Below are positions 3,792-51,315 of a DNA stretch of 64,000 nt, piece by piece. The stretch lies in NCBI RefSeq assembly GCF_011927665.1, contig NZ_JAATJA010000001.1, forward strand, positions 477,019 through 541,018, written 5' to 3'. Within the stretch, counting starts at the first letter, position 1; every line of letters begins with the position of its first letter. A program made the position numbers and the translations under genes. The DNA is from Desulfobaculum xiamenense. Its GTDB lineage: Bacteria; Desulfobacterota; Desulfovibrionia; Desulfovibrionales; Desulfovibrionaceae. The notes under the pieces are model-generated. The model made no database searches, had not been told where the DNA came from, and saw nothing but the letters and a program-made list of their open reading frames with translations.

Positions 3792-3801
3792 TAAAGTTGG
3801 A

Positions 3802-3838: not shown

Positions 3839-3839
3839 T

Positions 3840-4281: not shown

Positions 4282-5631
4282 ATGCAACACAGAGATGGTT
4301 TCACGTCGAGCATCGGTGTGACCCTGGCTACGCTCGGGTCTGCCGTCGGTCTCGGCAATATTTGGAAATTCCCGTACATGACGGGTATGAACGGCGGCGC
4401 GTCGTTCCTGCTCGTGTACATCCTCTGCACGTTCCTCGTCGGCCTTCCGGTCATGATCTCCGAGATTCTGATCGGTCGTCACGTCAAGGCCAACGCCATC
4501 ACCTGCTACAAGTCCCTGTCGCCCAAGGGCCAGCCGTGGTTCCTGATCGGCGTGGCGGGCGTCGTTTCCGCCTTCCTGATCATGGCCTTCTACACGGAGG
4601 TCGCGGGCTGGGTGTTCGCCTACATCTTCAAGAGCATCGGTCTGCTGTTCGTCGGCAATGGCAAGGTTGACGGCGGAGCCATGTTTACCACGCTGGTCTC
4701 CGATCCCGTGCAGTCCCTGTTCTGGCAGTGGTTCGTGCTGATCTTCGTCGGCGGTATCATCATGCTGGGCGTGTCCAAGGGTATTGAGGGCACCGTCAAA
4801 CGCCTTATGCCCATCCTGTTCGTGCTGCTCATCATCATCGGCGTGCGCAGCATGACCCTGCCCGGCGCGTCCAAGGGCCTTGAATTTCTGTTCACGCCGG
4901 ACTTCAGCAAGATCGACTTCACCGTCGTGCTGATGGCCATGGGCCTTGCCTTCTTCAAGCTGTCCATCGGCATGGGCACCATGACCACCTACGGCAGCTA
5001 CTACCGTGACGATCAGAATGTTCCCCTGACCACGCTTCGCGTCATGCTGGCCGACCTGACGGTTTCCATGCTTGCGGGCATCGCCGTGTTTCCGGCCGTG
5101 TTCGCCTTCGGCTTCGAGCCGGGCGCCGGTCCGTCCCTGCTGTTCATCACCATTCCGTCCGTGTTCGATTCCATGCCCATGGGCGGCGTGTTTCAGGTTC
5201 TGTTCTTCGTGCTGACCGCCGTGGCGGCCACCGGAGCCATGCTGTCGCTGCTTGAGGTTCCGGTTGCTTTTGCCATCGAGTCCATGGGTTGGTCCCGCGC
5301 GAAGGGCACCGTGGTCACCGTGGTTCTGCTCGGCCTGTTCGGCGCTCCCGCCGCGCTGTCCAGCAGCCTGACCGCAGACGTCACCTTCTTCGGCCTGAAC
5401 TTCTTCGATCTCTATGACTTCCTGTCCTCCAACGTCCTCATGCCCGCGGGCGGACTGTGCATTTGTCTGTTCGCCGGCTGGATCTGGGGCAAGGCGGCCA
5501 TTCGCAAGGCCATGTCCAACCACGGGGCGCTCAATACCGACGCCATCTCCAGCATGTTTACCATGCTGGTCCGCTTTGTGACGCCGGTCCTCATCCTTGT
5601 GGTTCTGCTCAAGGGCCTGAAAATCTTCTAG
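4282..5631 (+). CDS. Sodium-dependent transporter, NSS/SNF family
   Basis: A 449-residue polytopic inner-membrane symporter that moves an amino acid or similar solute with Na+. The NSS signature is in TM1 (GSAVGLGNIWKFPY, about residues 17-30), followed by NGGASFLLVY and about 11-12 hydrophobic segments in total, typical of the bacterial LeuT/TnaT/MhsT branch. I chose ATG at 4282 because AGAAGGGG lies just upstream and TM1 then starts near residue 9. The gene sits alone between two identical tRNA-Leu genes. The substrate cannot be decided from sequence. Confidence 0.9.
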   Translation: MQHRDGFTSSIGVTLATLGSAVGLGNIWKFPYMTGMNGGASFLLVYILCTFLVGLPVMISEILIGRHVKANAITCYKSLSPKGQPWFLIGVAGVVSAFLIMAFYTEVAGWVFAYIFKSIGLLFVGNGKVDGGAMFTTLVSDPVQSLFWQWFVLIFVGGIIMLGVSKGIEGTVKRLMPILFVLLIIIGVRSMTLPGASKGLEFLFTPDFSKIDFTVVLMAMGLAFFKLSIGMGTMTTYGSYYRDDQNVPLTTLRVMLADLTVSMLAGIAVFPAVFAFGFEPGAGPSLLFITIPSVFDSMPMGGVFQVLFFVLTAVAATGAMLSLLEVPVAFAIESMGWSRAKGTVVTVVLLGLFGAPAALSSSLTADVTFFGLNFFDLYDFLSSNVLMPAGGLCICLFAGWIWGKAAIRKAMSNHGALNTDAISSMFTMLVRFVTPVLILVVLLKGLKIF

Positions 5632-5686
5632 CCAAGCTGGAGATTTTCGGATAAATAGTGTTTCCCGAAAGGGAAAACCCCTCGTT

Positions 5687-5773
5687 GCCGAAGTGGTGGA
5701 ACTGGTAGACACGCTATCTTGAGGGGGTAGTGGCCGAAAGGCCGTGGGAGTTCGAGTCTCCCCTTCGGCACCA
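5687..5773 (+). tRNA. tRNA-Leu (anticodon GAG), copy 2
   Basis: An 87-nt tRNA identical to the copy at 3705-3791, with loop TTGAGGG (anticodon GAG), a long variable arm and encoded CCA. The flanking sequences differ between copies except for a few bases. A small hairpin (TTTCCCGAAAGGGAAA, about 5661-5676) separates it from the symporter gene. Confidence 0.95.
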
Positions 5774-21297: not shown

Positions 21298-23976
21298 TCA
21301 ACGCGGCGCGGCGTCCAATCCGATGTACCGCTGGTCCTTGGCGAGCCTTCGCGCAAGGGCGAGCTGATCGTCCCGGCAGGTGGCCTGTCCGTCGAGCATG
21401 GCGGCGCGTAGCTTGCGGAGTATCTCCCCGTAGAGCGGTCCCGGTTCGAGCCCCATGCCCTTGAGGTCGCGTCCGCTGACGTCGAGCTCCATGCCCTTGA
21501 GCTGCGTCAGGTACATGGACAGGCTCTTGCGGACTTCCTCCTGATTGTAGCGCGACATGAAGAACAGGAGGCCCTCCAGCGGCAGCATCTCCAGCATGAA
21601 GAAGAGTTCGCTGACCGGGCCGCCGCGGTGCCGCCACATCTTGAAGCGGTAGACGGTCTCGTTGGTCTGGGTGCGCAGCGTCAGGATATCCGACGACTGG
21701 CGTTTGGTGAGGTTGAGCCGCGTGCAGACGGACAGGATGTCCTCCTCGGGCATGCCGTTGAAGACTGCCAGCAGGTAGATCATCCAGTTGCGGGGCTTCT
21801 CGTCGAGGTAGAGCAGGCGGTACCAGTCGCGCACCTTTTCTATCTCCTCCAGCAGGTTCTCCTGCGCGGGAGTGAGCGTGAGCAGCGGGTGGATGGCCTC
21901 TAGCAGGCGATAGTCGCGCATCTGGCGCAGGCAGTCCACGGCGTGCTCTTCCTCGAAGATGAGGTTCAGCTCATGGAAGATGCGGGAGCCGGAGAGCTTC
22001 GGGATCATGTCCAACTGCATGGCGTTGCGGATAAGCCGGTCCGTCTGGCCGCCAATGCGGAAGTTGTAGCGCTTGGCGAAGCGGATGGCCCGCAGGATGC
22101 GCGTGGGGTCCTCCACGAAGGACAGCGAATGCAGCACGCGCACCACTCGGTTTTTGATGTCGCGTTGCGCGCCGAAGAAGTCCACCAGCTTGCCGAAGTT
22201 CGCGGGGTTCAGCTGCACGGCGAGGGCGTTGATGGTGAAGTCGCGCCGGTAGAGGTCCATCTTGATGGACGAGAGTTCCACCGTGGGCAGGGCCGCCGGG
22301 TACTCGTAGTATTCGAGGCGAGCCGTGGCCACGTCGATGCGTTGGCCATTTTCGAGGATGACCACCGCCGTGCGGAACTTGTGGTGCGCGCGCACGCGCC
22401 CGCCCATGCTCTGCGCCAGCGTGCGGGCAAAGGCGATGCCGTCGCCCTCCACCACGAGATCAAGGTCCGAATTCGGGGTGTTGAGCAGGATGTCGCGGAT
22501 GAAACCGCCCACCGCGTAGGCCTCCATGCCCACGTCGCGGGCGAGCTCCCCGGCGCGCAGCAGGATGTTGAAGAGCTCGCGCGGGAGCCTGTCGCGCAGC
22601 ATTATGCGCACGTTGCGCTCGCGCATGCGCTCGGGCAAAAGCGATTCCGGAATGCGCGCCGGTTCCTCGATGAGGATATTGATGAGGTCCGTTCGGGTGA
22701 GCACGCCGATGACGTGGCCGTCCTCCACCACGGGAACCAGCCGCTGCCCCTGCCCCAGAATGATTTCCATGACGTTGTAGAGGTCGGAATCCGGGGGGAC
22801 CGAGGCGTTGGAGCGCATGAGATAGTCCGTGGCCGGAGCGGAGCCGAGCCCGTGGGAGACGGCCTTGTCCGCGATCTGGTGTTCGAGGATGCCCTTGCAC
22901 TCGCCGGTTTTCGGATCGACCACCGGGGCGGCCTTGAGCCCGAAGCGGGTCATGGTTTCGCTGGCCTGCGCGGTGGTGTGGTCGCTCTCGATGAGAATCG
23001 GCGGGTGCGACATGAGTTGGCGCACCACCTGCTGCGGGTTGATGTGCGAATAGAGCAGGGCGAAGAGCTCGTCCTTGACCTGCGAGGGCGTGCGGTCCTT
23101 GATGCTGGCCGAGGCCGCGGCGGCGTGCCCGCCTCCGCCGAAGGACGCGCAGATCAGCCCCACGTCCACATCCGGAATGCGCGAGCGGGCCACCATCTGG
23201 ATGCGGTCATTCATCCGCGCCAGCGCGAAGAGCACGTGGATGTGCTCCATGTCGAGCATCTTGTGGGCCAACAGGGCGAAGTCGTTGACGTATTCCTCGG
23301 TGCTCACCTCGGTGATCACCACGGAGACGCCTTTGATCTCGTGGGTTTTGGCCGATTCGAGCATGGTGTTCAGCAGCGCGATCTGGTCGGAACTGAGGTC
23401 GCGGGTGATGAGGTCCGCGATGAAGGTGACGTCCATGCCCTGCGAGAGCAGCCACGACGCGGCGGCGAAATCCTGCGGGGTGGTGGAGTTGAAGGTGAAG
23501 GAGCCGGTGTCCTCGTAGATGCCGAGGCCGATGATGTTTGCCTCGTCGCGGTCGAGGGTGACGCCCCGCTTCATCAGTTCATGGCAGAGGATGGTTGCCG
23601 TGGAGCCCCAGTTCACCACGATGCCGTCACGGTGGACGACGTCGTCCTCGGAGTTGGGGTGATGGTCGTAGGCGTCTATGACGAGGTTCGGATTCTCGAA
23701 GACCTGTGCCACATGGTTCACGCGCGATTTCTGGCGCGTATCCACGACCACCAGCCGCGACACCGAGGAGAGGTCGATTTCCTTCACGCCACGGAAGTTG
23801 AACATGTACATGGCGCTCTGGATGTAGAAATTGCGCAGGTTCTTTTCCTGACTGCCGGGGAAGACGAGCGTCGCGTCCGGATACAGGCGGCTGGCGGCAA
23901 TCATGGCTGCCAGCGCGTCGAAGTCCGCGTTCATGTGCGTGGTGATGATGGTCGGGGCCTTCAACCTGTTGGGCAT
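21298..23976 (-). CDS. A-adding tRNA nucleotidyltransferase with DHH and CBS domains
   Basis: An 892-residue multidomain protein. Residues ~1-320 form a DHH/DHHA1 phosphoesterase (THMNADFDALAA, VDTRQKS, DAYDHHPNSEDD, GGGGHAAAASA). Residues ~325-450 are two CBS domains. From ~490 it is a class II polymerase-beta-type nucleotidyltransferase (AVGGFIRDILLNTPNSDLDL with the catalytic Asp pair, then RRDFTINALAVQ and RILRAIRFAKRY). This architecture is known for the enzyme that adds the terminal A of CCA in bacteria with split CC- and A-adding enzymes. A separate CC-adding enzyme is expected elsewhere. It lies upstream of the HIT-lapA-lapB run on the same strand. Confidence 0.9.
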   Translation of the reverse strand: MPNRLKAPTIITTHMNADFDALAAMIAASRLYPDATLVFPGSQEKNLRNFYIQSAMYMFNFRGVKEIDLSSVSRLVVVDTRQKSRVNHVAQVFENPNLVIDAYDHHPNSEDDVVHRDGIVVNWGSTATILCHELMKRGVTLDRDEANIIGLGIYEDTGSFTFNSTTPQDFAAASWLLSQGMDVTFIADLITRDLSSDQIALLNTMLESAKTHEIKGVSVVITEVSTEEYVNDFALLAHKMLDMEHIHVLFALARMNDRIQMVARSRIPDVDVGLICASFGGGGHAAAASASIKDRTPSQVKDELFALLYSHINPQQVVRQLMSHPPILIESDHTTAQASETMTRFGLKAAPVVDPKTGECKGILEHQIADKAVSHGLGSAPATDYLMRSNASVPPDSDLYNVMEIILGQGQRLVPVVEDGHVIGVLTRTDLINILIEEPARIPESLLPERMRERNVRIMLRDRLPRELFNILLRAGELARDVGMEAYAVGGFIRDILLNTPNSDLDLVVEGDGIAFARTLAQSMGGRVRAHHKFRTAVVILENGQRIDVATARLEYYEYPAALPTVELSSIKMDLYRRDFTINALAVQLNPANFGKLVDFFGAQRDIKNRVVRVLHSLSFVEDPTRILRAIRFAKRYNFRIGGQTDRLIRNAMQLDMIPKLSGSRIFHELNLIFEEEHAVDCLRQMRDYRLLEAIHPLLTLTPAQENLLEEIEKVRDWYRLLYLDEKPRNWMIYLLAVFNGMPEEDILSVCTRLNLTKRQSSDILTLRTQTNETVYRFKMWRHRGGPVSELFFMLEMLPLEGLLFFMSRYNQEEVRKSLSMYLTQLKGMELDVSGRDLKGMGLEPGPLYGEILRKLRAAMLDGQATCRDDQLALARRLAKDQRYIGLDAAPR

Positions 23977-24036: not shown

Positions 24037-25002
24037 CTAGGAGCGCGTTCGCATGTTCGAGCGGGGGTGGAACTGGCTGTGCATCCGCTTGAGCCGGCCG
24101 CTCTGCACGTGGGTGTAGATTTCCGTGGCGGTGATGTCCGCGTGGCCAAGCAGTATCTGCACCGTGCGCAGGTCCGCGCCGCCCTCCAGCAGGTGGGTGG
24201 CGAAGGAATGGCGGAAGGTGTGGGGCGAAATATCGCGCGTGATGCCCGCCTCCGTGGCGTAGCGCTTCACGCATTTCCACACGGCCTGCCGCGAAAGTCC
24301 CTTGCCCGATCGGTTCAGGAAGATGAAGTCCTCCTTGGGCGAGAACATGCTGCGCCAGTGGCGGAGATAGGTCTCCAGAAATTCCTGCGCGGCATAGTGG
24401 ATGGGCACCAGCCGCTCCTTTGCGCCCTTGCCGAAGACCTTGAGCACGCCGACCTGCGGGTCGAAATCGAAAGGCTTGAGGCTTATGAGTTCCGACACGC
24501 GCAGCCCGCCTGCGTAGAGCAGTTCGAGCATCACCCTGTCGCGGAAGCCGAGCTTGTCCTCAAGGCGTGGGCGCTCCAGCAGCGCCGCCATTTCCTCCAT
24601 GGAGAGCACTTCGGGCAGCTTGAGCGGGAGTTTCGGATTCTCTAGATATTGCGAAGGGTTGCCGTGCGCGAGACCTTCATCCTCCAGCCACGCGAAGAAG
24701 CCGCGCAGGGTGGAGAGGTGCCGGGCGAGGCTGCGGCTCGTCAGGCCCTTGCGGCGCATGTGGAAGAGGTAGAGCGAAAGGTCCTGCTGGCTCACGTCGC
24801 CAACGGCGGCGCGCTTGTCGTCCAGAAAGGCGGTGAACGCCGCGAGGTCCGCCTGATATGCGGCCAGCGAATTTTCCGAAAGCCCCCGGACCACGAGCAG
24901 ATGTTCCAGATATGCATCGACCTGCGGATGCCCCCGGTCCGGGGAGGCGGGCGCATCCGGGCGCTTGGCGCAGGCGGTCATGTCATTGTCGGTATTCATC
25001 AT
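24037..25002 (-). CDS. xerD: Tyrosine recombinase XerD (XerC/D family)
   Basis: A 321-residue site-specific recombinase for chromosome dimer resolution at dif. It has an N-terminal SAM-like DNA-binding domain (HPQVDAYLEHLLVVRGLSEN) and a catalytic domain with all active-site residues visible: Arg in LYAGGLRVSEL, Lys in FGKGAKERLVP, His and Arg in SPHTFRHSFATHLL, His in LGHADITATEIYTHV with the Tyr nucleophile. The order and the ATHLLEGGADLRTVQILLGH block are typical of XerC/XerD rather than phage integrases. A candidate dif site lies about 4 kb away at 28998. XerC versus XerD is a family-level judgement. Confidence 0.9.
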   Translation of the reverse strand: MMNTDNDMTACAKRPDAPASPDRGHPQVDAYLEHLLVVRGLSENSLAAYQADLAAFTAFLDDKRAAVGDVSQQDLSLYLFHMRRKGLTSRSLARHLSTLRGFFAWLEDEGLAHGNPSQYLENPKLPLKLPEVLSMEEMAALLERPRLEDKLGFRDRVMLELLYAGGLRVSELISLKPFDFDPQVGVLKVFGKGAKERLVPIHYAAQEFLETYLRHWRSMFSPKEDFIFLNRSGKGLSRQAVWKCVKRYATEAGITRDISPHTFRHSFATHLLEGGADLRTVQILLGHADITATEIYTHVQSGRLKRMHSQFHPRSNMRTRS

Positions 25003-25156
25003 ATTCTCCAGTGATTGGGAGCGTACACGCAGGCACGGCTCTTCTCAAGCCGAAACACCACGGGCGGCGTTGACAGGGCGCGGGGCGGGCAGTTAGTTTG
25101 TGCGACTTTCCATTGGAAACGTATACAACTGGTCAACTCACCGAAGGAGACTTCCC

Positions 25157-26323
25157 GTGTCCGATTTCAAGCTCGCGCGTCGCGTGGCCGAACTGCCCCC
25201 GTACCTCTTTGCCCGCATTGACAAGGTGAAGAAGGAAGTTGCCGCACGAGGCGTGGACATCATCAGCCTCGGCATCGGCGATCCCGATCTGCCGACCCCC
25301 GACTTCATCATCGACGCCCTCTGCGAGGCCGCAAGGAAGCCGGTGAATCACCGCTATCCCGATTATGAAGGTCTTGAGTCCTTCCGCTCCTCCGTGGCCG
25401 GATGGTACGGCCGCCGCTTCGGCGTGGACCTCGACCCCAAGACCGAGGTCGTGAACCTCATCGGTTCCAAGGAAGGCATCGCCCATTTCGCGCTGGCCGT
25501 CACCGATCCCGGCGACGTGAACCTCGTCTGCTCGCCCAACTACCCCGTGTACCCCATCACCACCGATTTTGCGGGTGGCGAGACGGTCTTCATTCCCCAG
25601 CTGGAGGAGAACGGCTTCCTGCCCGATCTCGACTCCATCTCGCCGGAACTGTGGGAGCGCGCGAAGTCCATCTACGTGAATTTCCCGAACAACCCCACGG
25701 CGGCCATGGCCACGCCCGAGTTCTTCCGCAAGCTGGTGGAACGCGCCCGCGAGACCAACACCATCGTCCTGCACGATGCCGCCTACACGGAAATCTACTT
25801 CGACGAGAACAAGCGCCCCATGTCCATCCTTGAGATTCCGGGTGCCAAGGACGTGGCCGTGGAATTCCACTCCCTGTCCAAGACCTACAACATGACCGGC
25901 TGGCGTGTCGGCATGGCCGTGGGCAATCCGCAGCTCATCGGCGCGCTTGGCAACATCAAGACCAACGTGGACTCCGGCTGTTTCCAGGCCGTGCAGGAAG
26001 CCGCCATCGTCGCCATGGAAAAGGGCGACGCCCACGTGGCCGAAACCCGCAAGATCTACCGCCAGCGCCGCGATGTGATGGTCGAGGCCCTGCACAAGGC
26101 GGGCATTGAATGCCGCGTGCCGGACGCCACCATCTACCTGTGGGCCAAGGTTCCGGCCGGTTACACCTCCGCGCAGTTCGTGACCAAGGTCATCGAGGAG
26201 ACGGGCGTGGTCATCACCCCCGGCAGCGGTTTCGGCGCGGCAGGCGAAGGCTTCTTCCGCATTTCGCTGACTGTGCCCACCGAAAGGCTTGAGGAGGCGG
26301 CATCACGCATCTCCAGCCTCTAA
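25157..26323 (+). CDS. dapL: LL-diaminopimelate aminotransferase
   Basis: A PLP-dependent class I/II aminotransferase, 388 residues, converting tetrahydrodipicolinate to LL-diaminopimelate in one step of lysine and peptidoglycan synthesis. Signatures are LGIGDPDLPTPD, the RYPDYEGLESFR block, NFPNNPTAAMA, the PLP lysine in HSLSKTYNMTGWRVG, and FFRISLTVPTERL at the C-terminus. The start is GTG 25157 with GAAGGAGA 6 nt upstream. It is followed by folK, which begins inside its last codons or at its stop. MalY-like or other aminotransferases are alternatives, but the block pattern best fits DapL. Confidence 0.88.
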   Translation: MSDFKLARRVAELPPYLFARIDKVKKEVAARGVDIISLGIGDPDLPTPDFIIDALCEAARKPVNHRYPDYEGLESFRSSVAGWYGRRFGVDLDPKTEVVNLIGSKEGIAHFALAVTDPGDVNLVCSPNYPVYPITTDFAGGETVFIPQLEENGFLPDLDSISPELWERAKSIYVNFPNNPTAAMATPEFFRKLVERARETNTIVLHDAAYTEIYFDENKRPMSILEIPGAKDVAVEFHSLSKTYNMTGWRVGMAVGNPQLIGALGNIKTNVDSGCFQAVQEAAIVAMEKGDAHVAETRKIYRQRRDVMVEALHKAGIECRVPDATIYLWAKVPAGYTSAQFVTKVIEETGVVITPGSGFGAAGEGFFRISLTVPTERLEEAASRISSL

Positions 26324-26823
26324 TTCCGGCTTACGTCTGCCTCGGCTCGAACCTTGGCGACACGGAAGGGAATCTCGCCCACGCCATCGAGCGACTGGGC
26401 GAGGTTCCCGGTTTGACTGTGGACGCGGTCTCCGCCGTCTATTTCACCGAGCCGCAGGACGTGAAGAATCAGCCGTGGTTTGCCAACCGCGTTGCCCGCG
26501 TGCTATGCGAGGGCAAGATTTCGCCGCAGGGGCTTCTGGACGAGCTCCTCCGCGTGGAGGCCGAACTCGGCCGCGTGCGCGGGGAGGGCGTGGTCCGTTT
26601 CGGCCCGCGCGTCATCGACCTTGATCTGCTCCTTTACGGCGATGCGGTCATGGAAACCGAAACCCTGACGCTGCCGCATCCGCGCATGCGCCAACGCGCC
26701 TTCGTGCTGGTGCCGCTGGCGGATGTGGCCCCCGATCTGCGATTTCCCGATGGAGACACGCTACGCGACGCGCTCGCACGGCTGTCGTACAGGGTCGACA
26801 ACTTCAGAATCTGGCAGGATTAG
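26302..26823 (+). CDS. folK: HPPK (FolK), apparently with a non-ATG/GTG/TTG start
   Basis: 2-amino-4-hydroxy-6-hydroxymethyldihydropteridine pyrophosphokinase of folate synthesis. The opening AYVCLGSNLGDTEGNL and the later RFGPRVIDLDLLLYGD and LPHPRMRQRAFVLVPL are diagnostic. The conserved N-terminal GSNLGD block lies upstream of every ATG, GTG or TTG in the frame, and the frame is closed by TGA at 26290-26292. The best start is ATC at 26302, preceded by GAGGAGG at 26291-26297. The alternative is ATT at 26323, overlapping the dapL TAA stop. From ATC the protein is 173 residues. Starts at 26386 or 26413 would delete the substrate-binding N-terminus. Confidence 0.85.
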   Translation: MTHLQPLIPAYVCLGSNLGDTEGNLAHAIERLGEVPGLTVDAVSAVYFTEPQDVKNQPWFANRVARVLCEGKISPQGLLDELLRVEAELGRVRGEGVVRFGPRVIDLDLLLYGDAVMETETLTLPHPRMRQRAFVLVPLADVAPDLRFPDGDTLRDALARLSYRVDNFRIWQD

Positions 26824-26904: not shown

Positions 26905-27177
26905 ATGCTCAAGATCATCGTGCCCATCGTCTGCGCATTCCTGCTGTTCAAGATGCTCAAGGGCGACCAGAAGAAGAAAGTCGCCAAGGAAAACAAGGAC
27001 ATGGAGCGCATGGCCGAGACCGGCGAGACCGTGAAGGACCCGGTGTGCGGCGCGTATGTTCCGCATGATGCGAGCATCCGGGTGAAGGACGCCGACGGCG
27101 TGCATTGCTTCTGTAGCTACGAGTGCCGCGACGCCTACCTGCGCAGGCTCGAATCCGTCGACGTCACGAACGAATAA
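26905..27177 (+). CDS. Small membrane-anchored YHS/TRASH-like metal-binding protein
   Basis: A 90-residue protein: one N-terminal hydrophobic segment (IIVPIVCAFLLFKML), a charged linker, and a C-terminal YHS/TRASH-like finger with DPVCGAYVPHD and CFCSYECRDAY. Such fingers bind a transition metal through Cys residues. Similar small proteins lie next to unrelated housekeeping genes in many proteobacteria, and their role is not established. A ribosome site (AAGG) precedes ATG 26905. It sits between folK and the transaldolase gene on the same strand. Confidence 0.75.
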   Translation: MLKIIVPIVCAFLLFKMLKGDQKKKVAKENKDMERMAETGETVKDPVCGAYVPHDASIRVKDADGVHCFCSYECRDAYLRRLESVDVTNE

Positions 27178-27252: not shown

Positions 27253-27906
27253 ATGCGCTTTTTCATCGACACTGCCAACCTTGCGGAAATTCGCGAGGCA
27301 AAGGCATACGGTCTCATCGACGGCGTAACCACCAATCCGTCCCTCTTTTCGAAGGAATCCGAGAACTGGCGCACCCTGGCCGACAAGATCTGCCACGAGG
27401 TGGATGGGCCGGTCAGCCTTGAAGTCGTGGGCACCACCGCCGAGGACATGGTCCGCGAGGCGCGTGATCTCGCGGGCATCGCGCCCAACGTCGTGGTCAA
27501 GATTCCCATGCTCATGGAAGGCCTGAAGGCCGTCCGCCAGCTCTCGGAAGAGGGCATTTCCACCAATGTGACGCTGTGCTTCTCGCCGTCGCAAGCCCTT
27601 TTGGCCGCCAAGGCCGGGGCGACCTACATCAGCCCCTTTGTTGGCCGTCTCGATGACACGTCGTCCGACGGCATGGAGCTGGTGAATCAAATCATCACCA
27701 TCTATCGCAATTACGGGTTCAAGACGCAGGTTCTCGTGGCCAGCGTTCGCAATCCTATCCACATCGTTCAGGCCGCGCTCATGGGCGCGGACGTGGCGAC
27801 CATTCCCTTCAAGGTTCTGAATCGTCTTTCGCGGCATCCGCTCACAGACGCCGGGCTTACCCAGTTCCTCGAGGACTGGAAGAAGACCCCCGGTGCGCAG
27901 GGCTGA
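27253..27906 (+). CDS. Fructose-6-phosphate aldolase/transaldolase (TalC/FSA type)
   Basis: A 217-residue TIM-barrel enzyme of the short transaldolase group: [28 protein letters not shown], the Schiff-base lysine in [11 protein letters not shown] near residue 85, [19 protein letters not shown] and SPFVGRLDD. It moves a dihydroxyacetone unit in the pentose phosphate pathway or splits fructose 6-phosphate; the two activities cannot be separated here. ATG at 27253 has AAGGAGC 8 nt upstream. It ends at a strong terminator, the last gene before the terminus gene desert. Confidence 0.92.
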
Positions 27907-27940
27907 TTCGCCTCGGCGTACGCCGTCTGATTGTCTGGCC

Positions 27941-27971
27941 AAAGGCCCCCACTTCGGTGGGGGCCTTTTTT
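27941..27971 (+). terminator. Terminator after transaldolase
   Basis: AAGGCCCCCAC pairs with GTGGGGGCCTT around a TTCG tetraloop, followed by TTTTT. Confidence 0.92.
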
Positions 27972-28997
27972 GTGCGTTTTGAAACGGGACCGGGCACACG
28001 AAGGGGGTGACAATGACAAAACAGGCCGGGATGGCGGGGAAAAATGGGGAAAAAGGGCGTCACATCGAAAAAAGGCCTCTAGCAGGCCTCTGGACGCGTT
28101 TTGGTCTTCGCGATGAGCAATGATCCGGAAAGATTCTGAAAACGCCTGAGGGGCGGCTTTGCGGAGGTCGGTTTTTTCGATGGATTTCGAAAAATCGGGG
28201 AAGGGCGGAGGCGGGGAGGGGAGTGCTGGAAATGGAAGGGGAAAGGGGAGTCTCCGAAGCTGATGACGCGCGGGGGTGACGGCCGAGGGTGAGACGGACT
28301 TGGAAATCGACCTTCGGACGCGACACAGGTGAGGCGAAGCCTCGCGGTCGTGTTGAGATGGTGAGATGAGGAGCACGCCCGGTGGCGACGCACTCGGGAA
28401 AAGGTGCGTGAACGGGAAGATAGCGTGCAGACCCCATGCGCGACGTGTAGGGGCGGTGCGGCTTGAGGTGCGCAGGCCGAAGCGCGCGCTTGGTCAGTCC
28501 GCGCGCGGACACGGCGTCTGTCACGACAAATTCACGGCATATAGGGCGTTTGAGTCGGCTTCCGATTGATCGGCTGCGGCTGTCGATTGTGGCGTATTGG
28601 CGGGTGGTTGCGTGCGAAGCTTGTAGCGATGTGGACGGTTGGAGTAGGCGCGGAGCCTCGGCCTGCGCGGCTTTTCCGCCATGCGACTCCGATGCTGCGC
28701 GGGGATGAGGCTCGCAGAGGGCCTTCAAGAGCGGCTGGCTTCGGGCGCGCAATGCTGGATTCGTAGCCGGAATCAGGCTGTTGGGCGGCGTTTCGTGGCG
28801 TGTGGTTTTCCGTCGGCGTCTGGAGGTCACATGAGGGGCACGGCATGTGCTAGGCGGAATATGCCCACAAGCAGGTGTCCAGTTGGTCCCAATTCCCGAA
28901 GCGCCGTGAAGCCGGATACGGCCAGAGGTCATGGACCAGCGCGGGCCAAAGCGGGTGGTTTTGCGGTTCGAATCGACAATGTTTCCCGTATCGGAAT

Positions 28998-29025
28998 AAG
29001 TCTCATAATGTAAATTATGTTAACT
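28998..29025 (+). other. dif: Predicted dif site (XerC/XerD recombination site)
   Basis: A 28-bp XerC arm / 6-bp centre / XerD arm arrangement: AAGTCTCATAA at 28998-29008, centre TGTAAA at 29009-29014, XerD arm TTATGTTAACT at 29015-29025. Against E. coli dif (arms GGTGCGCATAA and TTATGTTAAAT, centre TGTATA) the XerD arm differs at one base and the inner XerC arm CATAA is identical. It sits in the only AT-rich patch of a 3-kb gene desert, between xerD and ftsK, and KOPS-like octamers point toward it from both sides. Dimer-resolution function is inferred from this match. Confidence 0.87.
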
Positions 29026-30134
29026 TTAATATATGGAAAACATGCTGGGAAGCCGCATGAATAAAGGATTACGTCTTTGGAAACCCGTGCGTGAAACAAA
29101 ACCTGCGGGTACCTCTTCAACTTCAATGTTCCACGCGTCATTTCTTGAACCTTCACTTGAGCTTTCTGGTGTGTGCGGGTGTTTCGAGGGGGTGTTGATG
29201 AGGCTGGAGCGTGTCCTCTCTTTTAGACGTTCTGCGATGTTCCGGTGAGGCACATAGGCTGATTTGACCTATGCTTTCGATGGGCTAGGAGTGCTGGGTG
29301 GCGTCTGTCCTGGCCTCCCCTGTGGGCTTTCATTGAGGCACTCTGGTGCGCAAAGGCGAATGAGCCGAGGGAGTCCCCTCTCGTTTCGCTTGCAATGGAA
29401 GGGGGCGACTTTGCTCGGGCTTGGGCGGGCTACGCAAAGGTGCGTGGCTTGCGTATCGAAAACCGCCCCACTTTCCACTTGGGTGGTTTCGTGGGGTGAT
29501 TGGGTGGGAAATGCGGCATTCTCAAGCGTTGAGATCTCCGCTGCGGCGAAAGAGAGGTGTCTGGGCAGGCCGACTGCCCTCCCGCTGTGGGACGCTCTGC
29601 AATGCGTCAGGGCTCGCTGTATGGACGTTCGCGGCATGTGGGACTTGACTTGGGGGTGCTCTGTGAGTGCGCGGCAGCGAGAGTGCGGATTCGATCACCA
29701 TTTTGGGCGCTGGCCCTCTGCGTGAACTGCCTGTACGGCCTTTCTCCGGTAAAATCGCACCGAGGGGGGAGTCGTGTTGCGGCTGCGTCTGGGGATCTCC
29801 GGGCGCGTGAGGATGTGGTGGGAAGGTTTTTCTTCGACATGGGTGCCCGGTGTGTGGGCTTGTTGGGGTGGGGGATGGAACTTCCTGTTATCTTTGGCGC
29901 TTCTGTGCGCCCAGCACGGGACCGCGCCGTGAGTAGCGTCGTTGAGGCCTCTTCTTGTTCTCTTATTGCTCCGGGCGCGTGGGTGTGGAGCCTATTCTTG
30001 AGCCATTGGTCGAGGTTTTTAGCTGGAGAGATGTTCGCGGTGCGGGTTGGCTGTCGGTGTGTTTTTCTTTCCGTGGTCTTTTCGTTTGGATAGCTCTTCG
30101 TGTTGCTGGTCGCTTGACGCTGAAACCCCTGCGA

Positions 30135-30161
30135 ACAGGTATTCCTCACAGGAATACCTGT
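30135..30161. repeat. Perfect 12-bp inverted repeat in the gene desert
   Basis: ACAGGTATTCCT (30135-30146) and AGGAATACCTGT (30150-30161) are separated by CAC. There is no T-run and no adjacent gene. It could be a protein-binding palindrome or an RNA hairpin; function is unknown. Confidence 0.6.
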
Positions 30162-31026
30162 GTAATTAGTGGCAGTTGGCGCTGGCTCGCCAGCTACTCG
30201 TGTATGCGGCAAGCCTCGCTCGGTCCTTGGCTCGCTGGCGCAAACGCCCCGCCTCAGCGCGATCCATCTGGTTTTTGCCTGTGTCGTGTCGATTCCGGCG
30301 TGCCCGGCTGGCTCTGTAGCGCGGGTGTACTCCCCTCCCCTGCCGTGGTCCCTGTCGCCCCCAATCGTGGTTTCGGGCTGTTGAGACCTGTTTTGTGGGA
30401 TGGTTTCAGCGGGTAGCGTCCCCGAGAGCAAGAAAGGCAGCGGGGTCGCGTGCCTGCACTGTGTTGCCGTAAAAATTTAAAACGCATCGCGTGCCGCGAG
30501 AATCGAAAACGTGTCCATTTGGGAGGACAACGCCGCGCGAGTTCATGGCCTTTGCGTGCTGAATATGACGCAAAATGCCTTTGCAGCGCGCTTTTACGTC
30601 GTATGTCGTGGAATTCGTTTCGGGATGTGTCGGGATGGTGTGCGTGGATGCCAGGCCTTGGCATGTCATTCTTGCGTGTAGATGACGTGCTGGTGTGCTG
30701 TTGTGCGTGATGTAGGAATTTGCCCTGTAAGACGCGTTTGCATCTTAAAATGGGCCATGGGCCATGCCGGAGGTTGAAAACGCCGCAGAGGGGCATTCTC
30801 GCGGATTGAGTGCCTGGTGGCTGCATGGTGGGGGCTGGGTGTGAGGTATCTCGGCAGGCGTTGCGAGTGCCGGCTCCCGGTCCGGCCCGAGCCAGTAGGC
30901 TGGGGCCGGGAGTCATGCGGACGGACGTTTTGGGAAGCAGACTTGAGACAACAACATGCTGATTTTATTCTTTGTATTGAACAACCTCAAGTTGAGCTTC
31001 AAGTTTCCAAACGCTCCGCGTACGCC

Positions 31027-40339: not shown

Positions 40340-42601
40340 TTATTCTCTGCCCGTGATGACCCTGCGCGGCTTGCTGCCGTCCGCCGGGCCGATCACGCCG
40401 TCCTGCTCCATCTGCTCCACGAAGCGCGCCGCGCGGTTGAAGCCGATGCGGAAGCGCCGTTGGATGAGCGAAATGGACGCCTTGCCCTGCTCCATTACGA
40501 ACTGGACGGCCTCCCCGTAGACGGGATCGTCCGGGATGCCGTCCGAGCCGTTGGGGCCATCGCCGTTGCTGCCGCCAACCTCGCCTTCCTTGGACCACTG
40601 GCCGAAGTCGAGTTCGAACTCGGGCTTGGCCTTGGCCTTCCAGTAGTCGATGATCAGGCCGATTTCCTCTTCGCCCACCAGTGCGCCGTGAACGCGGACG
40701 TTCTTGCCGCCGCCGGGCTTGAAGAGCATGTCGCCCTTGCCCAGCAGGTGGTTTGCACCCACGGTGTCGAGGATGGTGCGCGAGTCCTGCGGCGAGGTCA
40801 CGGTGAACGCGATGCGGCTGGGGAAGTTCGCCTTGATGAGACCGGTGACGACGTCCACGGACGGCCGCTGCGTGGCGAGGATCATGTGGATGCCCGCCGC
40901 GCGGGCCAACTGCGCCAGCCGCACGATGGAGGTTTCCACTTCCTTGCGCGCGGTGAGCATGAGGTCCGCCAACTCGTCGATGACGATGACGAGGTACGGC
41001 AGTGGCTGCATCTCTTCGCATCCCTCGGGGCGGTCGTCGCCGAGCTTCCTCAGCTTGGCATTGAAGCCCTCGATGTTGCGCACGCCGAGCTTGGCCATGG
41101 AGTCGTAGCGCTTTTCCATCTCATAGACGGCCCAGTCCAGCGCGTTCTTGGCCAGAGCCATGTCCGTGACCACGGGATGCACCAGATGCGGCAACTCCGA
41201 GTACACGGACAGTTCGATGCGTTTGGGGTCCACCAGCAGGAGCTTCAGCTCGTCCGGTGCGGCCTTGTACAGGAAGCTCAAAAGCAGACAGTTCAGGCAG
41301 ACGCTCTTGCCCTGACCGGTGGCACCGGCCACCAGCAGATGCGGCATCTTGGCCAGATCGGCCACGCGCGGCCTGCCGTAGATGTCCTTGCCAAGGGCCA
41401 GCGTGAGCAGCGACTTGGAGGATTGGAAGTCCTTCGATTCGATGATCTCGCGCAGATAGACCGTCTGGCGCTTTTCGTTGGGGATTTCCACGCCCACGGT
41501 GTCCCTGCCCGCCAGCGGAGCTTCGATGCGTACGGCGCTGGCACGCAGCGCAAGGGCCAGATCGTCTGAAAGATTGGCGATGCGGCTGATCTTCACGCCG
41601 GGCGCGGGCTTGTATTCGAACATCGTGACCACGGGACCGGGCACGGCGTCCTTCACCTCGCCCTGAATGCCGAAGTCCGACAGGCAGGTTTCGAGATCCT
41701 TGGCCTTGGTTTCAAGCACGTCCTTGGGGATGACGTCCTCGTTGTTGCCGGGGGCCTCCAGATACTCGATCGGCGGCGGACCCGACATATCCGTGGGGAT
41801 GGGCGCGTGGGCGGCCTTGGGAGCCGGGGGTGTGGCTGGTTCGGGTTGTGCGGCCGCCCTACCGAGATTCGGAACGTATTCCTCGTCCACGGTGGAGGCG
41901 TCCTTGGCGGCGGGTTCGTCCTTGACGCGCTTTTTGCGCGGCTTGGGCGAGAGCAGACCGCGTCGGGTTTTCTCTTCGGTCTTCGGCTCGTCCTTGTCGT
42001 CCTGCCTGCGGCGGCTGCGGGACAGGCGCTCCCTGAACTTGGTCCACGCATCGACAAGGCGCATCTGTACGCGCTTGGCGAACGCGCCCCACGTCATCCC
42101 GCACATGAGTTGCAGCGAGACGATGGTCGAAAACAGCCAAATCAGGAAGGCCCCTGTGGGTCGCAGGTAGTACTGCGCCTCGTTGTAGAGGACAGCGCCA
42201 AGCAGCCCGCCACCGCGGATGTCGCCGGCGTGCAGGTGCTCGCGCGCCCACTGCGTGGAGCCGAAGCTGGTGAGGCACAGGAAGAAGAGGAAAACGCCGA
42301 GCCATCGCCACCAGGCAGGGAACAGCCTGCGGACGAAGTTTCCGGCGGACAGCGCCGCGAGTGCCGGGGGAAGCAGGCAACTCGACAGGCCGAAGAGCAT
42401 GACCAGTAGATCGGATTGATAGGCGCCGATGAGCCCTGCCGCATTCTTGACCACGTATCCCCTGCTCACGGCCTGATTGAGGCTCGGATCGTGGGGGCTG
42501 TAGGTGGCCAGCGAGACGAGCAGCAGAACTGCCCAGAATGCGAGCGCGAGAGCCATGATCTCCTTGAGGAGTTTGGCGCCGTTCGTCGTGGGTTCCTCCA
42601 T
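40340..42601 (-). CDS. ftsK: DNA translocase FtsK
   Basis: A 753-residue division-linked DNA pump. Four N-terminal TM segments (residues ~15-165) anchor it at the septum. A Pro/Lys-rich linker (~200-290) leads to the motor domain with Walker A GATGQGKSVCLN near residue 420, Walker B VIVIDELADLM near 520, and LATQRPSVDVVTGLIKANFP. The C-terminal winged-helix gamma domain (ASISLIQRRFRIGFNRAARF) reads KOPS and activates XerD at dif. It is an 'essential-length' FtsK with a shorter linker than E. coli. A candidate dif lies about 11 kb away. ATG 42601 is preceded by GGAGGA. Confidence 0.96.
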   Translation of the reverse strand: MEEPTTNGAKLLKEIMALALAFWAVLLLVSLATYSPHDPSLNQAVSRGYVVKNAAGLIGAYQSDLLVMLFGLSSCLLPPALAALSAGNFVRRLFPAWWRWLGVFLFFLCLTSFGSTQWAREHLHAGDIRGGGLLGAVLYNEAQYYLRPTGAFLIWLFSTIVSLQLMCGMTWGAFAKRVQMRLVDAWTKFRERLSRSRRRQDDKDEPKTEEKTRRGLLSPKPRKKRVKDEPAAKDASTVDEEYVPNLGRAAAQPEPATPPAPKAAHAPIPTDMSGPPPIEYLEAPGNNEDVIPKDVLETKAKDLETCLSDFGIQGEVKDAVPGPVVTMFEYKPAPGVKISRIANLSDDLALALRASAVRIEAPLAGRDTVGVEIPNEKRQTVYLREIIESKDFQSSKSLLTLALGKDIYGRPRVADLAKMPHLLVAGATGQGKSVCLNCLLLSFLYKAAPDELKLLLVDPKRIELSVYSELPHLVHPVVTDMALAKNALDWAVYEMEKRYDSMAKLGVRNIEGFNAKLRKLGDDRPEGCEEMQPLPYLVIVIDELADLMLTARKEVETSIVRLAQLARAAGIHMILATQRPSVDVVTGLIKANFPSRIAFTVTSPQDSRTILDTVGANHLLGKGDMLFKPGGGKNVRVHGALVGEEEIGLIIDYWKAKAKPEFELDFGQWSKEGEVGGSNGDGPNGSDGIPDDPVYGEAVQFVMEQGKASISLIQRRFRIGFNRAARFVEQMEQDGVIGPADGSKPRRVITGRE

Positions 42602-48025: not shown

Positions 48026-48121
48026 GAAAAGTCCTAATTTCCGCTTGCAATCGGGTTTGAAAATTCTTATATGCCTTTTCGCCGACGGGGTGAGCGTTTC
48101 CCGCTCTTCCCGACGCATCAT

Positions 48122-48198
48122 GGCGAGGTAGCTCAGTTGGTCAGAGCATGCGGCTCATATCCGCAGTGTCGGAGGTTCAAGTCCTCTCCTCGCTACCA
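48122..48198 (+). tRNA. tRNA-Met (CAT), copy 1
   Basis: A 77-nt tRNA with encoded CCA. The anticodon stem TGCGG/CCGCA encloses CTCATAT, anticodon CAT. The acceptor stem GGCGAGG/CCTCGCT and the D- and T-arms look like elongator Met. tRNA-Ile2 with a modified C34 cannot be strictly excluded, but the T-arm and acceptor favour Met. It is identical to 51197-51273. Confidence 0.93.
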
Positions 48199-48207
48199 AG
48201 AGTATAT

Positions 48208-48238
48208 AGCCCTTCCGCGAAAGCGGGAGGGCTTTTTC
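48208..48238 (+). terminator. Terminator after tRNA-Met copy 1
   Basis: AGCCCTTCCGC pairs with GCGGGAGGGCT around a GAAA loop (one G-T pair), followed by TTTT. A very similar hairpin follows the other tRNA-Met copy. Confidence 0.85.
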
Positions 48239-48553
48239 GTTTGGAAAAGGAAGTTGGGCCTCTGGTCCCCTTTTCAAAGGCAATATTCATGTGCTGTGAA
48301 TGTTGCCGCAGTGTTGGATGATTCTCCACCCTGCCCTTGCAATCAACGAAAAGCCCGCCGAGCAGTATGTTTTCTCCCCCATAATTCCTCATGAAAAGGT
48401 ATGGGAATGACAAAATTTCTCCTTGTTTTGGTGAACGGAGCTGGACGTTCTCTTGTTTTATGTTGCCTCGGCGAAGGAAACGAAATAACGTCGCCGCGAA
48501 TATAGCATCGCTAATTTTCACATCGAAACTCAAAATCGATACGAGGCATCATC
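48239..48553. other. AT-richer gap before the SPFH gene
   Basis: No gene is seen in these 315 nt. The composition is clearly AT-richer than the flanking core genes, which fits acquired DNA downstream of a tRNA gene. It probably holds the promoter of the SPFH gene; no clear promoter boxes could be assigned. Confidence 0.45.
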
Positions 48554-49435
48554 ATGGTCGGCGTCCTAATTGTTCTAGTTATTGCACTACTGCCTATAAT
48601 CTCCGGCTGCTTTATCATCACCAAACAACAGAAGGTCCAGATACTCGAAACCTTCGGCAAATACTCCGGCTTCCGAACCGCCGGCCTGTCGATGAAGTTG
48701 CCTTGGCCCATCCAAATCGCCGTGGCGACCGTAGATCTTCGCATTCAGGAAATTGCGGAAACCGTGGAGATAAAGTCCAAGGATAACGCCTTTCTGTGCG
48801 TCCCGGTCAAAGTGCAGGTCAAGGTCATCCCGGAAAAAGTGAAGGATGCCTATTACGCTTTGGACAATCCGTGGAGTCAGATTCTTTCCTATGTCGTTAA
48901 CCAAGTCCGTGCCAAGGCCAGCTCAATGACCATGGACGAAATTTTTTCGGGCAAGTCAGACTTTGAAGCCGTGGTAGAGACTGAACTCAAGTCCACATTT
49001 GAAGAGTACGGTTTCGCCGTAGTCAACGTCCTCGTGGACGATCCGCAGCCAAGCGACCAGCTCAAGGAGGCTTTTGAGAAGGTGTTGGCCGCCCAGCGCG
49101 ACAAGGATGCTGCAGTTCTGGAAAAGGAAGCCGTGCGGGAACGCCTTGTGGGCCGGGCGGAAGCGGAAGCGGAAAGCTTGCGGCTCAAAGCCAAGGGCTA
49201 TGCGGATCAGCGCAATACCATGGCCGAAGGCAACAGCAAAGCCATTGCCGTCTTTTGCGAGGGCCTGAACATTGATCATGCCTTGGCCCTCAAATTCTTT
49301 GAAGGCTGGGATATGCGTGATGCCGTCCGAGAGGCTGCCCAGGGTGAGGGAAATACCGTCCTTATCCCTGTGGAGATGGGCGGTATGGGCCGTATGGCCG
49401 CCGACCTTGAGGCGTTGAAGGGCATCGGGAAGTGA
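48554..49435 (+). CDS. SPFH/band 7 (stomatin-like) protein
   Basis: A 293-residue SPFH-domain protein. A hydrophobic N-terminus (VGVLIVLVIALLPIISGCF) is followed by the SPFH domain (residues ~25-200: VQILETFGKYSGFRTAG, PVKVQVKVIPEKV, GFAVVNVLVDDPQPSD) and a charged Ala/Glu-rich helical part (AVRERLVGRAEAEAESLRLK). The N-terminus ends ISGC, a lipobox-like match, unlike the usual SPFH membrane hairpin. SPFH proteins form membrane microdomain scaffolds; the specific partner is unknown here. GAGG lies 7 nt before ATG 48554. It sits alone downstream of a tRNA-Met, suggesting acquisition. Confidence 0.85.
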   Translation: MVGVLIVLVIALLPIISGCFIITKQQKVQILETFGKYSGFRTAGLSMKLPWPIQIAVATVDLRIQEIAETVEIKSKDNAFLCVPVKVQVKVIPEKVKDAYYALDNPWSQILSYVVNQVRAKASSMTMDEIFSGKSDFEAVVETELKSTFEEYGFAVVNVLVDDPQPSDQLKEAFEKVLAAQRDKDAAVLEKEAVRERLVGRAEAEAESLRLKAKGYADQRNTMAEGNSKAIAVFCEGLNIDHALALKFFEGWDMRDAVREAAQGEGNTVLIPVEMGGMGRMAADLEALKGIGK

Positions 49436-49545
49436 CCAAAGTATATGAATTTTGAAGCGGTGATGACTACTGGTGCGAGTCTACAGCGTTAGTGGCCCTA
49501 TCGTCTTTTTGGCGGGGACGATGGACGCCGAGTCGGATTCCGACA

Positions 49546-49590
49546 GATAAAGAAAAGCCCCCAGCAACACGCTGGGGGCTTTTCTTTATC
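49546..49590. terminator. Long perfect-stem bidirectional terminator
   Basis: A 20-bp perfect stem (49546-49565 with 49571-49590) around AACAC, with A- and T-rich flanks on the two strands. It ends the SPFH transcript and the convergent TSCPD gene. Confidence 0.9.
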
Positions 49591-49655
49591 GAGCTTCAAA
49601 CACGCCTTGCCGCAAGGGGGGCTTCCCACTCGGACGAGGCGGCGCGTTCGACGGG

Positions 49656-49958
49656 CTAGGCGTCGTTCCTGTACGGCTCGAGGGCCTTGGAGAGCTGATC
49701 GGGGCAGGAGGTGGCCTTGTTGCCGCAGCGGATGCCGGAGAGCTTATCCATCACGTCCGCCACACGCATGCCTTCCACGAGTTTGCCGATGCCTTCGAGG
49801 TTGCCGGGGCAACCGCCGGTGAAGGTTACGTCGTGGACTTTGCCCTCTTCCACGCGGAAGGTAATCAGTTTGGAGCACACGCCCTGCGGGACGAAGGTAA
49901 TGGCGGTTTCGTCGGCGGCGGGTTGCTGCGGAGCAAGCGGAGAAAGATTGAGATTCAT
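49656..49958 (-). CDS. TSCPD-domain protein (TIGR03905-like)
   Basis: A 100-residue small protein with the motif TSCPDQLSKAL at the C-terminal end, characteristic of a family of short uncharacterised TSCPD proteins. Conserved Cys are in VPQGVCSKLI, FTGGCPGNLEG and IRCGNKATSCPD, suggesting metal or Fe-S binding. The N-terminal 20 residues are Pro/Ala-rich and non-conserved-looking. Some members are linked with ribonucleotide reductase; here the neighbour is map, with no such link visible. Function is not established. Confidence 0.75.
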   Translation of the reverse strand: MNLNLSPLAPQQPAADETAITFVPQGVCSKLITFRVEEGKVHDVTFTGGCPGNLEGIGKLVEGMRVADVMDKLSGIRCGNKATSCPDQLSKALEPYRNDA

Positions 49959-50320
49959 GATGGCTCGTCTCTTGTACTGTTTGGATAATGGTGAACGGGA
50001 AAACGCCAGCGGGACGCGCGGTTTCGCGTGGCGCGGCCCAGTCTTCTACCCGACGCTGATGTTCCTTGCAAGCGACGGACGTGGAGAATGGCCCGCCATG
50101 GTGCGATTCCCGTTGGGTCAACGGTGTTTTTGCGGTGCGAAATCCCCAGTGCCGCCATGCCTCTCGTCGCGAAATGCTGGCGCGTTGCGGACGCATTTGC
50201 GACATGACGGGACATTGGCGATAGCGGTGGGCTTTCAGGTTTGCGCCCGCTGCGGTTGACATGAGACTCTGAAGGAGTATGAGCTTGCCCTTTGCCCACG
50301 GTAAAAAAGGGAGTCTTGCC
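49959..50320. other. Divergent gap between TSCPD gene and map
   Basis: About 360 nt without a convincing gene. TTGACA at 50256-50261 and TATGAG at 50278-50283 are separated by 16 nt and could be the sigma-70 promoter of map if its start is the TTG at 50321. The remainder shows nothing recognisable. Confidence 0.35.
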
Positions 50321-51103
50321 TTGAAGCTCAAGAACAAATCCGAAATCGCGCTCATGCGCGAAGCGGGCCTTCTGCTCTGGAAGGCCCATATGATCGCCGC
50401 CGAGATGGTTGAACCCGGCGTGACGACCGAGGCCATCGACGCCGAAGTGGAAAAGTTCATCCTCGGCAACAACGCCACCCCGCTCTTCAAGGGTGTTCCC
50501 GGAAAGGTGCCCTTCCCCGCGACGTGCTGCATCTCCGTAAACGAAGAGGTCGTGCATGGCATCCCGTCCTCTCGTCAGCTGATCGCTGGAGATATTGTCA
50601 GCATCGACATCGGCCTCAAGATCAAGGGCTGGTGCGCGGATTGCGCCTGCTCCCATGGCGTAGACGGTCTCGATGACGAGAAGCGCGCCCTCCTGGACGT
50701 GACCGAGGAATGCCTGCGTATCGCCATCAAGGACATCCGCCCCGGCGAGAAGTGGAGCAAGATTGCCAAGAAGATGGCCAAACACGCCCGAAATGCCGGT
50801 TTCTCCGTCGTCGAGGAGCTGGTGGGCCACGGCATCGGCGAAAGCATGTGGGAACTGCCCCAGATTCCGAACTACTTCTCGCATAATTGCGAGGACTTCC
50901 GAATCAAGCAGGGCATGGTTCTCGCCGTGGAGCCGATGATCAACGCCGGAGTGAAGGAAGTGCAGACCCTCGACGATCACTGGACCATCGTGACCGCCGA
51001 CCGCAGGCCCTCCGCCCACTTCGAGCACACCATCGCTGTCACCGCCGCCGGTGCGCAGGTGATGACCTGCGGTCCCAACGGCGAAGGATGGGCGCTGCGC
51101 TAG
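50321..51103 (+). CDS. map: Methionine aminopeptidase, type I
   Basis: This enzyme removes the initiator Met from nascent proteins. It is a pita-bread M24 fold with the five metal ligands visible: Asp in SIDIGLKIKGW and CADCACSHGV, His in GHGIGESMW, Glu in AVEPMINAG and FEHTIAVT. Usual proteins of this family begin MIxLKxxxEIxxMR; the start TTG 50321 gives MKLKNKSEIALMREAG (260 residues) and has AAGGGAG 7 nt upstream. ATG 50279 (274 residues) has a site too close to it, and TTG 50285 with AAGGAG is a third choice. Confidence 0.93.
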   Translation: MKLKNKSEIALMREAGLLLWKAHMIAAEMVEPGVTTEAIDAEVEKFILGNNATPLFKGVPGKVPFPATCCISVNEEVVHGIPSSRQLIAGDIVSIDIGLKIKGWCADCACSHGVDGLDDEKRALLDVTEECLRIAIKDIRPGEKWSKIAKKMAKHARNAGFSVVEELVGHGIGESMWELPQIPNYFSHNCEDFRIKQGMVLAVEPMINAGVKEVQTLDDHWTIVTADRRPSAHFEHTIAVTAAGAQVMTCGPNGEGWALR

Positions 51104-51196
51104 ACCCTTTTGGGGGCTTTTTGGAAAAAAGTCCTTGCAATTTCCGACGGAACGGGTAGATACCGCCTCCGCAGACGACGAAAGTTGTCAACACAT

Positions 51197-51273
51197 GGCG
51201 AGGTAGCTCAGTTGGTCAGAGCATGCGGCTCATATCCGCAGTGTCGGAGGTTCAAGTCCTCTCCTCGCTACCA
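51197..51273 (+). tRNA. tRNA-Met (CAT), copy 2
   Basis: Identical over 77 nt to the copy at 48122-48198, including encoded CCA and the CTCATAT anticodon loop. The flanks differ, apart from the base immediately 5' and the following hairpin. Confidence 0.93.
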
Positions 51274-51282
51274 CGAATGCAT

Positions 51283-51315
51283 AGCCCTCCTGCGAAAGCG
51301 GGAGGGCTTTCTTTT
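51283..51315 (+). terminator. Terminator after tRNA-Met copy 2
   Basis: AGCCCTCCTGC pairs with GCGGGAGGGCT around GAAA (one G-T pair), followed by TTCTTTTT. It resembles the hairpin after copy 1. Confidence 0.82.

Follow-up and report, generated by a model that had tools for sequence, protein, structure and literature searches.

The dif/XerCD/FtsK system of E. coli shares with the locus described here the 11-6-11 form of the site, the XerD arm (with one change), the GGGNAGGG polarity and the gamma domain of FtsK. The genes are scattered in E. coli, unlike in the Desulfobaculum xiamenense genome, where xerD and ftsK flank dif and are about 15 kb apart. According to the accessible part of its source (Carnoy and Roten 2009, PMC2731167), the dif of D. 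vulgaris Hildenborough is intergenic and identical to the present site at 26 of 28 bases; centre and XerD arm are the same and the two differing bases belong to the outer XerC arm. It is located 18.4 kb from the skew maximum, while the site in our genome is located about 22 kb from the raw skew change. As the D. vulgaris dif is tabulated in that paper, this type of site is already in print for this group.

Linkage of a recombinase gene to its site was described, in the portions available of two papers (PMC5357621, PMC2731167), for one-recombinase systems. In xerS/difSL and xerH/difH (PMC5357621, same restriction), the recombinase gene is close to the site, as it is here. However, these systems use one recombinase and a different site, whereas our genome encodes both XerC and XerD, has a canonical dif and carries several kb and several genes between xerD and dif. 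The distance is 4.5 kb, so that xerD is linked to its own site without being immediately adjacent to it. The survey of Kono et al. 2011 (PMC3025954), as far as its text was available, found dif near the skew shift-point, as in our case, with xerC for the most part close to dif and xerD close to the origin. The present genome departs from this pattern, with xerD near dif and xerC on another contig. In searches of the open-library literature, within its accessible portions, no report of xerD-dif linkage in Desulfovibrionales came up.

The dif site occupies positions 28998–29025 on the plus strand of the window, i.e. the whole stretch of 64,000 nucleotides that was analysed, and its exact 28-mer is AAGTCTCATAATGTAAATTATGTTAACT. 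The sequence-only reading had proposed an XerC arm, a 6-bp centre and an XerD arm, and the 28 bp indeed show an 11-6-11 form with the XerC arm at 28998–29008, the centre at 29009–29014 and a conserved XerD arm at 29015–29025. Compared to the E. coli dif, the XerD arm TTATGTTAACT deviates at one base and the inner XerC half CATAA is the same, both as previously noticed, and 21 of the 28 bases are common to the two sites. The arms are palindromic at 7 of 11 positions, including all five inner positions. The site is non-coding and only 6 of its 28 bases are G or C. With up to three mismatches, the inner 20-mer matched once in the window (0.00 matches expected from 100 shuffles). The expectation that the 28-mer would be unique held in the genome-wide search: one copy was found in the 3,641,914 bases of the eight-contig assembly at up to three mismatches, with no second copy and no match of the backward control.

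Among relatives, the core of dif was present in 136 of the 149 family genomes (up to three mismatches), and in 119 of the 121 with a completeness of 90% or more and a contamination of 5% or less. The backward control matched in 17 of the 149 genomes, as counted from the rows. Thirteen family genomes yielded no dif match, eleven of which are less than 90% complete and two of which are 98% complete. A slightly wider pattern with up to two mismatches found dif in 137 of 150 genomes of the order. The form common among the relatives is (T/A)TGTC(T/C)CATAATGTAAATTATGT(T/A)AACT, followed by TT. When a genome gave several matches, the one with the fewest mismatches was kept; in G113, the match in the form usual for the genus was kept over one with fewer mismatches.

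The site lies in a gene-free stretch of 3,120 bases (27907–31026), which extends from the stop codon of talC (27906) to that of a cyclase-like gene (31027); the latter was named by eye and has no NCBIfam match. Within this stretch, no recognisable genes or RNA families were detected. Its six open reading frames had no Pfam match over the cut-off, and Rfam yielded nothing at gathering score, with one chance-level match (E = 0.36) at E ≤ 1. Based on these searches, hidden genes or structured RNAs were rejected, and the two-copy repeats of the stretch look like chance. That dif is the only AT-rich patch of the roughly 3-kb region was upheld: the 40-mer with the lowest G + C content (15%) covers dif, and 40-mers with at most 25% G + C start solely at 28988–29012. 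Comparison by blastn (E ≤ 0.01) with the 200-kb dif regions of G036, G045 and G131 gave matches of 42–45 bases over dif alone, i.e. over dif and a short tail (28996–29040, plus strand, 93% identity). In G045, which belongs to a neighbouring genus, the counterpart gap is much shorter, as judged from gene positions. A chance AT-rich palindrome was ruled out by the single copy, the shuffle expectation and the finding that dif is the sole part of the stretch matched in relatives.

Both recombinases and the translocase are encoded in the genome. The gene xerD (24037–25002, minus strand) encodes a tyrosine recombinase (TIGR02225, 357 bits, cut-off 329.6) and is transcribed away from dif. XerC is encoded on contig C5, where the TIGR02224 score of 336.5 bits exceeds the cut-off of 335.15 by 1.3 bits. 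Pfam Phage_integrase matched six times in the genome, five times over the cut-off, and two of the matches are the Xer proteins. A scan of named genomes for XerD relatives gave three loci, one of which is too distant for an orthologue; XerD is 60% identical to that of a Desulfovibrio sp. relative. The gene ftsK (40340–42601, minus strand) is transcribed towards dif, with its near end about 11 kb from the site, and codes for a DNA translocase in which the 4TM, alpha, motor and gamma domains are all present. The protein resembles solved FtsK (2iut, E = 7e-145), its gamma domain resembles 2j5o (1e-15) and 2ve8 (4.8e-15), and the alignment of the gamma stretch to FtsK chains of known structure runs through the NRAAR helix. 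The gamma domain also retains QR-GN, residues said to contact XerD. At the matching end, the C-terminus of XerD (window 24037–25002) reads RLKRMHSQ; the counterpart end in E. coli XerD is RLRQLHQQ.

The motif GGGNAGGG is given as a KOPS-like form for Vibrio cholerae, similar to that of E. coli, in the available part of a review (PMC5357621). Within 200 kb of dif, it occurs 32 times on the plus and 5 times on the minus strand to the left, and 7 times on the plus and 44 times on the minus strand to the right. The likeliest switch of polarity is between −0.8 and +1.3 kb of dif. Step models gave log-likelihoods of −35.1 with the step at dif, −49.1 at +22 kb and −60.4 without a step. The bias was seen in plus-strand genes, in minus-strand genes and outside called genes, and the motif ranked first among 56 composition-matched patterns near dif. 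In the 22 kb right of dif alone, KOPS counts were 0 plus and 11 minus, against 80/89 summed over 55 patterns of like composition (Fisher 0.0013). Farther from dif the bias is weaker, with 10 plus and 27 minus on the right side beyond 200 kb. The nearest KOPS on the left are GGGAAGGG (28198–28205) and GGGGAGGG (28213–28220), both on the plus strand, and the nearest on the right is at 30333–30340 on the minus strand; all of them point at dif. Further pattern positions on the right, all on the minus strand, are 31669, 32530, 32936, 33961, 36749 and 41503.

Near dif, GGGCAGGG took first place among the octamers leaning to dif, both in the own genome (1,712 octamers with 12 or more copies per side) and in a pool of seven genomes (13,075 octamers with 40 or more copies); in a wider sample it was not among the top 30 strand-biased octamers. 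As no motif was specified for this ranking of octamers and the GGGNAGGG type came out on top, FtsK reading seems to be conserved far from E. coli. In six of the seven genomes the interval of the KOPS switch includes dif. For G036, G068, G090 and G131 it is 14–48 kb wide and takes in dif solely, or perhaps solely, for that reason, and the best switch point of G036 is 6 kb off dif. The interval of G065 (−6.3 to −2.3 kb) misses dif by 2.3 kb. Papers in the open literature that join KOPS and Desulfovibrio appeared unrelated in the parts available.

Taken together, the stretch 28998–29025 is almost certainly the chromosomal dif of an XerC/XerD system, in which the position of xerD most simply reflects inherited gene order. 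Its assignment as dif by the sequence-only reading is supported by the form of the site, its single copy, the two recombinases and complete FtsK encoded in the genome, the convergence of KOPS with a switch within about 1 kb, the core found in the family and the conserved neighbourhood. To judge from its sequence, the site itself is an ordinary, textbook dif. For binding, order of cleavage, activation and dimer resolution we rely on what is established in E. coli and Vibrio. At division, septal FtsK would load on GGGNAGGG sites and pump DNA to the point at which their orientation flips, which is dif. There, the gamma domain of FtsK would switch on XerD, and XerD together with XerC would recombine the two copies of dif, so that a dimeric chromosome would be converted to monomers. 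Read in this way, dif shows where FtsK brings the chromosome together.

The site had also been taken to fix the replication terminus. This held for the convergence point of the KOPS, while the replication change can be located from GC skew to no better than tens of kb, so that the agreement with dif is coarse. All 15 stretches of contig C1 left of dif have positive GC skew. To the right, the first two stretches are positive, values are mixed up to about +120 kb and then negative, save for a few near zero. Among the 40 stretches sampled, all on C1, there was no distant skew switch. For the raw skew, the change-point lies +22 kb from dif (bootstrap 16–28 kb), a distance of 0.6% of the genome. 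The third-position skew was split by strand because it strongly follows the coding strand. The strand-corrected replication part changes at +48 kb with an interval of −44 to +76 kb, which is not distinguishable from dif. In terms of GC skew, dif is near the terminus, with the exact place blurred after strand correction.

It is conceivable, though rather doubtful, that replication ends well past dif, nearer the antipode of the origin, and that FtsK polarity, but not termination, is tied to dif. The raw skew changes at +22 kb in the own genome, +14 kb in G045 and +79 kb in G065, with KOPS switches in these three that coincide with dif or are about 4 kb away at most, are consistent with such late termination. 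The same applies to closed G065, in which the point opposite the skew-defined origin is at dif +95 to +98 kb. However, the strand-corrected skew interval includes dif in all seven genomes, and in G036, a member of the same genus, the corrected step is at dif. In addition, points opposite the second DnaA gene, which was taken as the origin in four genomes (the skew check of the origin was made in G065), are at about +64 kb (G131), +13 kb (G068), +8 kb (G090) and +61 kb (G045) from dif, and match the raw skew changes of +5, +2, −9 and +14 kb, respectively, poorly. Since these four genomes fit the pattern of G065 poorly, termination near the antipode is a hint only.

The raw data had given a clean uncoupling of GC skew and KOPS in the own genome, for which a block of some 70–85 kb around dif, inverted relative to G036, had seemed an explanation. 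This inversion is placed in the line of G036, as G045 has the arrangement of our genome. The uncoupling was withdrawn as a finding after the strand-split third-position skew had reduced it to a rival, because much of the raw skew stems from the orientation of the genes.

The neighbourhood of dif is conserved over much of the order. In the own genome, xerD is preceded on its left by a tRNA-nucleotidyltransferase-like gene of the conserved block (21298–23976, minus strand; NF041569, 889 bits, below the cut-off of 1440). Between xerD and dif, all on the plus strand, are dapL (LL-diaminopimelate aminotransferase, 25100–26323; TIGR03540, 594.5 bits, cut-off 593.25), a FolK-like gene named by eye (26413–26823), a gene for a small YHS-like protein (26905–27177; YHS E = 0.029, below cut-off) and, as the last gene before dif, talC (fructose-6-phosphate aldolase, 27253–27906; TIGR00875, 297 bits, cut-off 245.95). 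The recurrent order in 38 loci read gene by gene, which had been chosen as linked, is nucleotidyltransferase, xerD, (dapL), FolK-like, YHS-like, (talC), dif, with losses and insertions. With weak matches counted, the FolK-like gene is found by xerD in 38 of 38 loci and the YHS-like and nucleotidyltransferase genes each in 37; dapL occurs in 23 and talC in 19. On the side of dif away from xerD, the loci vary. Genes between −13.8 and +18.6 kb are in place in six relatives (at most 15 kb from their position in the own genome, on the same strand) more often than genes farther out, several of which are present but shifted or turned. A variable gap lies immediately right of dif.

For the linkage counts, dif positions were those of the matches listed (e.g. 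127 of the 136 matching family genomes), and xerD was called by a match at E ≤ 1e-70 (E ≤ 1e-60 in one of three samples). Of 191 genomes of the order with xerD and dif among these matches, 144 have both on one contig, and in 111 of the 144 they are at most 15 kb apart. This linkage extends over five of the six families in the matches listed: f1 (81/112), f2 (13/13), f4 (12/13), f5 (4/5) and f6 (1/1). None of the six f3 genomes has a listed xerD and dif on one contig. The family sample gave, among the matches listed, 124 genomes with both, 97 with both on the same contig and 77, from 27 genera, with at most 15 kb between them. In the remaining 20 of the 97 the listed distance exceeds 15 kb, e.g. 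339 kb in G087. Transcription of xerD was directed away from dif in all 113 listed cases within 20 kb, which are not independent events. Among the 77 genomes, 10 have the listed dif reversed relative to the xerD neighbourhood; in genus g26 it is reversed in some species and in others not.

Of 90 f1 genomes with both ftsK and dif, again among the matches listed, 64 have them on one contig, and in 33 of these 64 ftsK is within 20 kb of dif. The same holds for one of two same-contig f2 genomes, with ftsK always transcribed towards dif, and for none of the six same-contig cases of f4, f5 and f6. In genus g40 (G201, G214 and G218), the listed matches place dif and ftsK 7.5 kb apart and xerD about 31 kb off on the same side; here the block is altered on the xerD side only. 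As a control, 48 of 189 genomes of the phylum outside the order were kept (strict dif form and a listed xerD). Among the listed matches, eight of them have xerD and dif on one contig and 40 on different contigs; no xerD was found within 10 kb of dif in the 48, and in four the distance is 14–34 kb, so that a looser xerD-dif linkage reaches wider than the order.

The placement of xerD beside dif is old in the order and most readily taken as part of an inherited gene order; with dif inside a conserved block, no special function is needed to account for the linkage. The xerD-dif pair may be under selection, but we regard it as unlikely that xerD is held beside dif by selection on recombinase gene and site, as proposed for xerS/difSL and xerH/difH. 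The listed linkage in 111 of 144 genomes and five families would fit such selection, as would the turnover of the intervening genes dapL and talC and the lack of listed cases within 10 kb outside the order, although 40 of those 48 genomes have the two on different contigs. On the other hand, other neighbours are equally faithful in loci that had been chosen as linked, and the whole block is kept in most of the six relatives. Moreover, the listed xerD is more than 15 kb away in the 20 family genomes mentioned, and the four listed outside cases at 14–34 kb also speak against it.

We tentatively suggest, as one doubtful option among several, that the terminus in this order carries a retained dimer-resolution neighbourhood. 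In this two-recombinase system, dif would be flanked by xerD and, in much of one family, by ftsK on the opposite side, and the arrangement would be kept through rearrangements because site, recombinase and activator act jointly or because few breaks are tolerated around dif. The xerD-dif linkage is a modest new observation that spans an order. It shows that linkage of a recombinase gene to its site also occurs outside one-recombinase systems, and the linked and unlinked genomes are natural cases for asking whether linkage matters.

It is very improbable that a Xer-using mobile element (an IMEX or a Xer-integrating microvirus) left the site behind as its attachment site and that it is not the host dif: such elements are known in other bacteria, according to the accessible parts of the literature, and the same kind of site is found on two gokushovirus-like contigs, but the site is single in the assembly with no better-placed second dif on the eight contigs, the KOPS converge on it, the same gene neighbourhood is seen in many genera, and four of the five neighbours tested match housekeeping families (the recombinase as XerD), with one lacking a match.

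The two viral contigs, L208 (4,660 bases, site at 155–176) and L209 (5,262 bases, site at 388–409), carry a Desulfovibrio-type dif and encode a microvirus capsid protein (Phage_F, E below 1e-190); the 28-mer of L209 is that of D. vulgaris dif. Judged by these sites, L208 and L209 may integrate by XerCD in Desulfovibrio-type hosts, and the sites suggest the hosts of the two gokushovirus contigs. Gokushoviruses with dif-like motifs are already known (PMC7062461, as far as accessible).

Three further repeats were observed in the window. At 53412–56627, the 3' end of tmRNA and its terminator are repeated (78 bases, 99%) at 56550–56627. The repeats bracket about 2.7 kb of AT-rich DNA with an open reading frame of 744 aa, unmatched in Pfam and PADLOC, together with a DUF6538 stub resembling the start of an integrase; this is probably a small island in tmRNA. 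Two copies of tRNA-Leu(gag) at 3698–5773 are 2.0 kb apart (98% over 94 bases) and two copies of tRNA-Met at 48119–51310 are 3.1 kb apart (95% over 117 bases); both pairs are either duplications or island borders.
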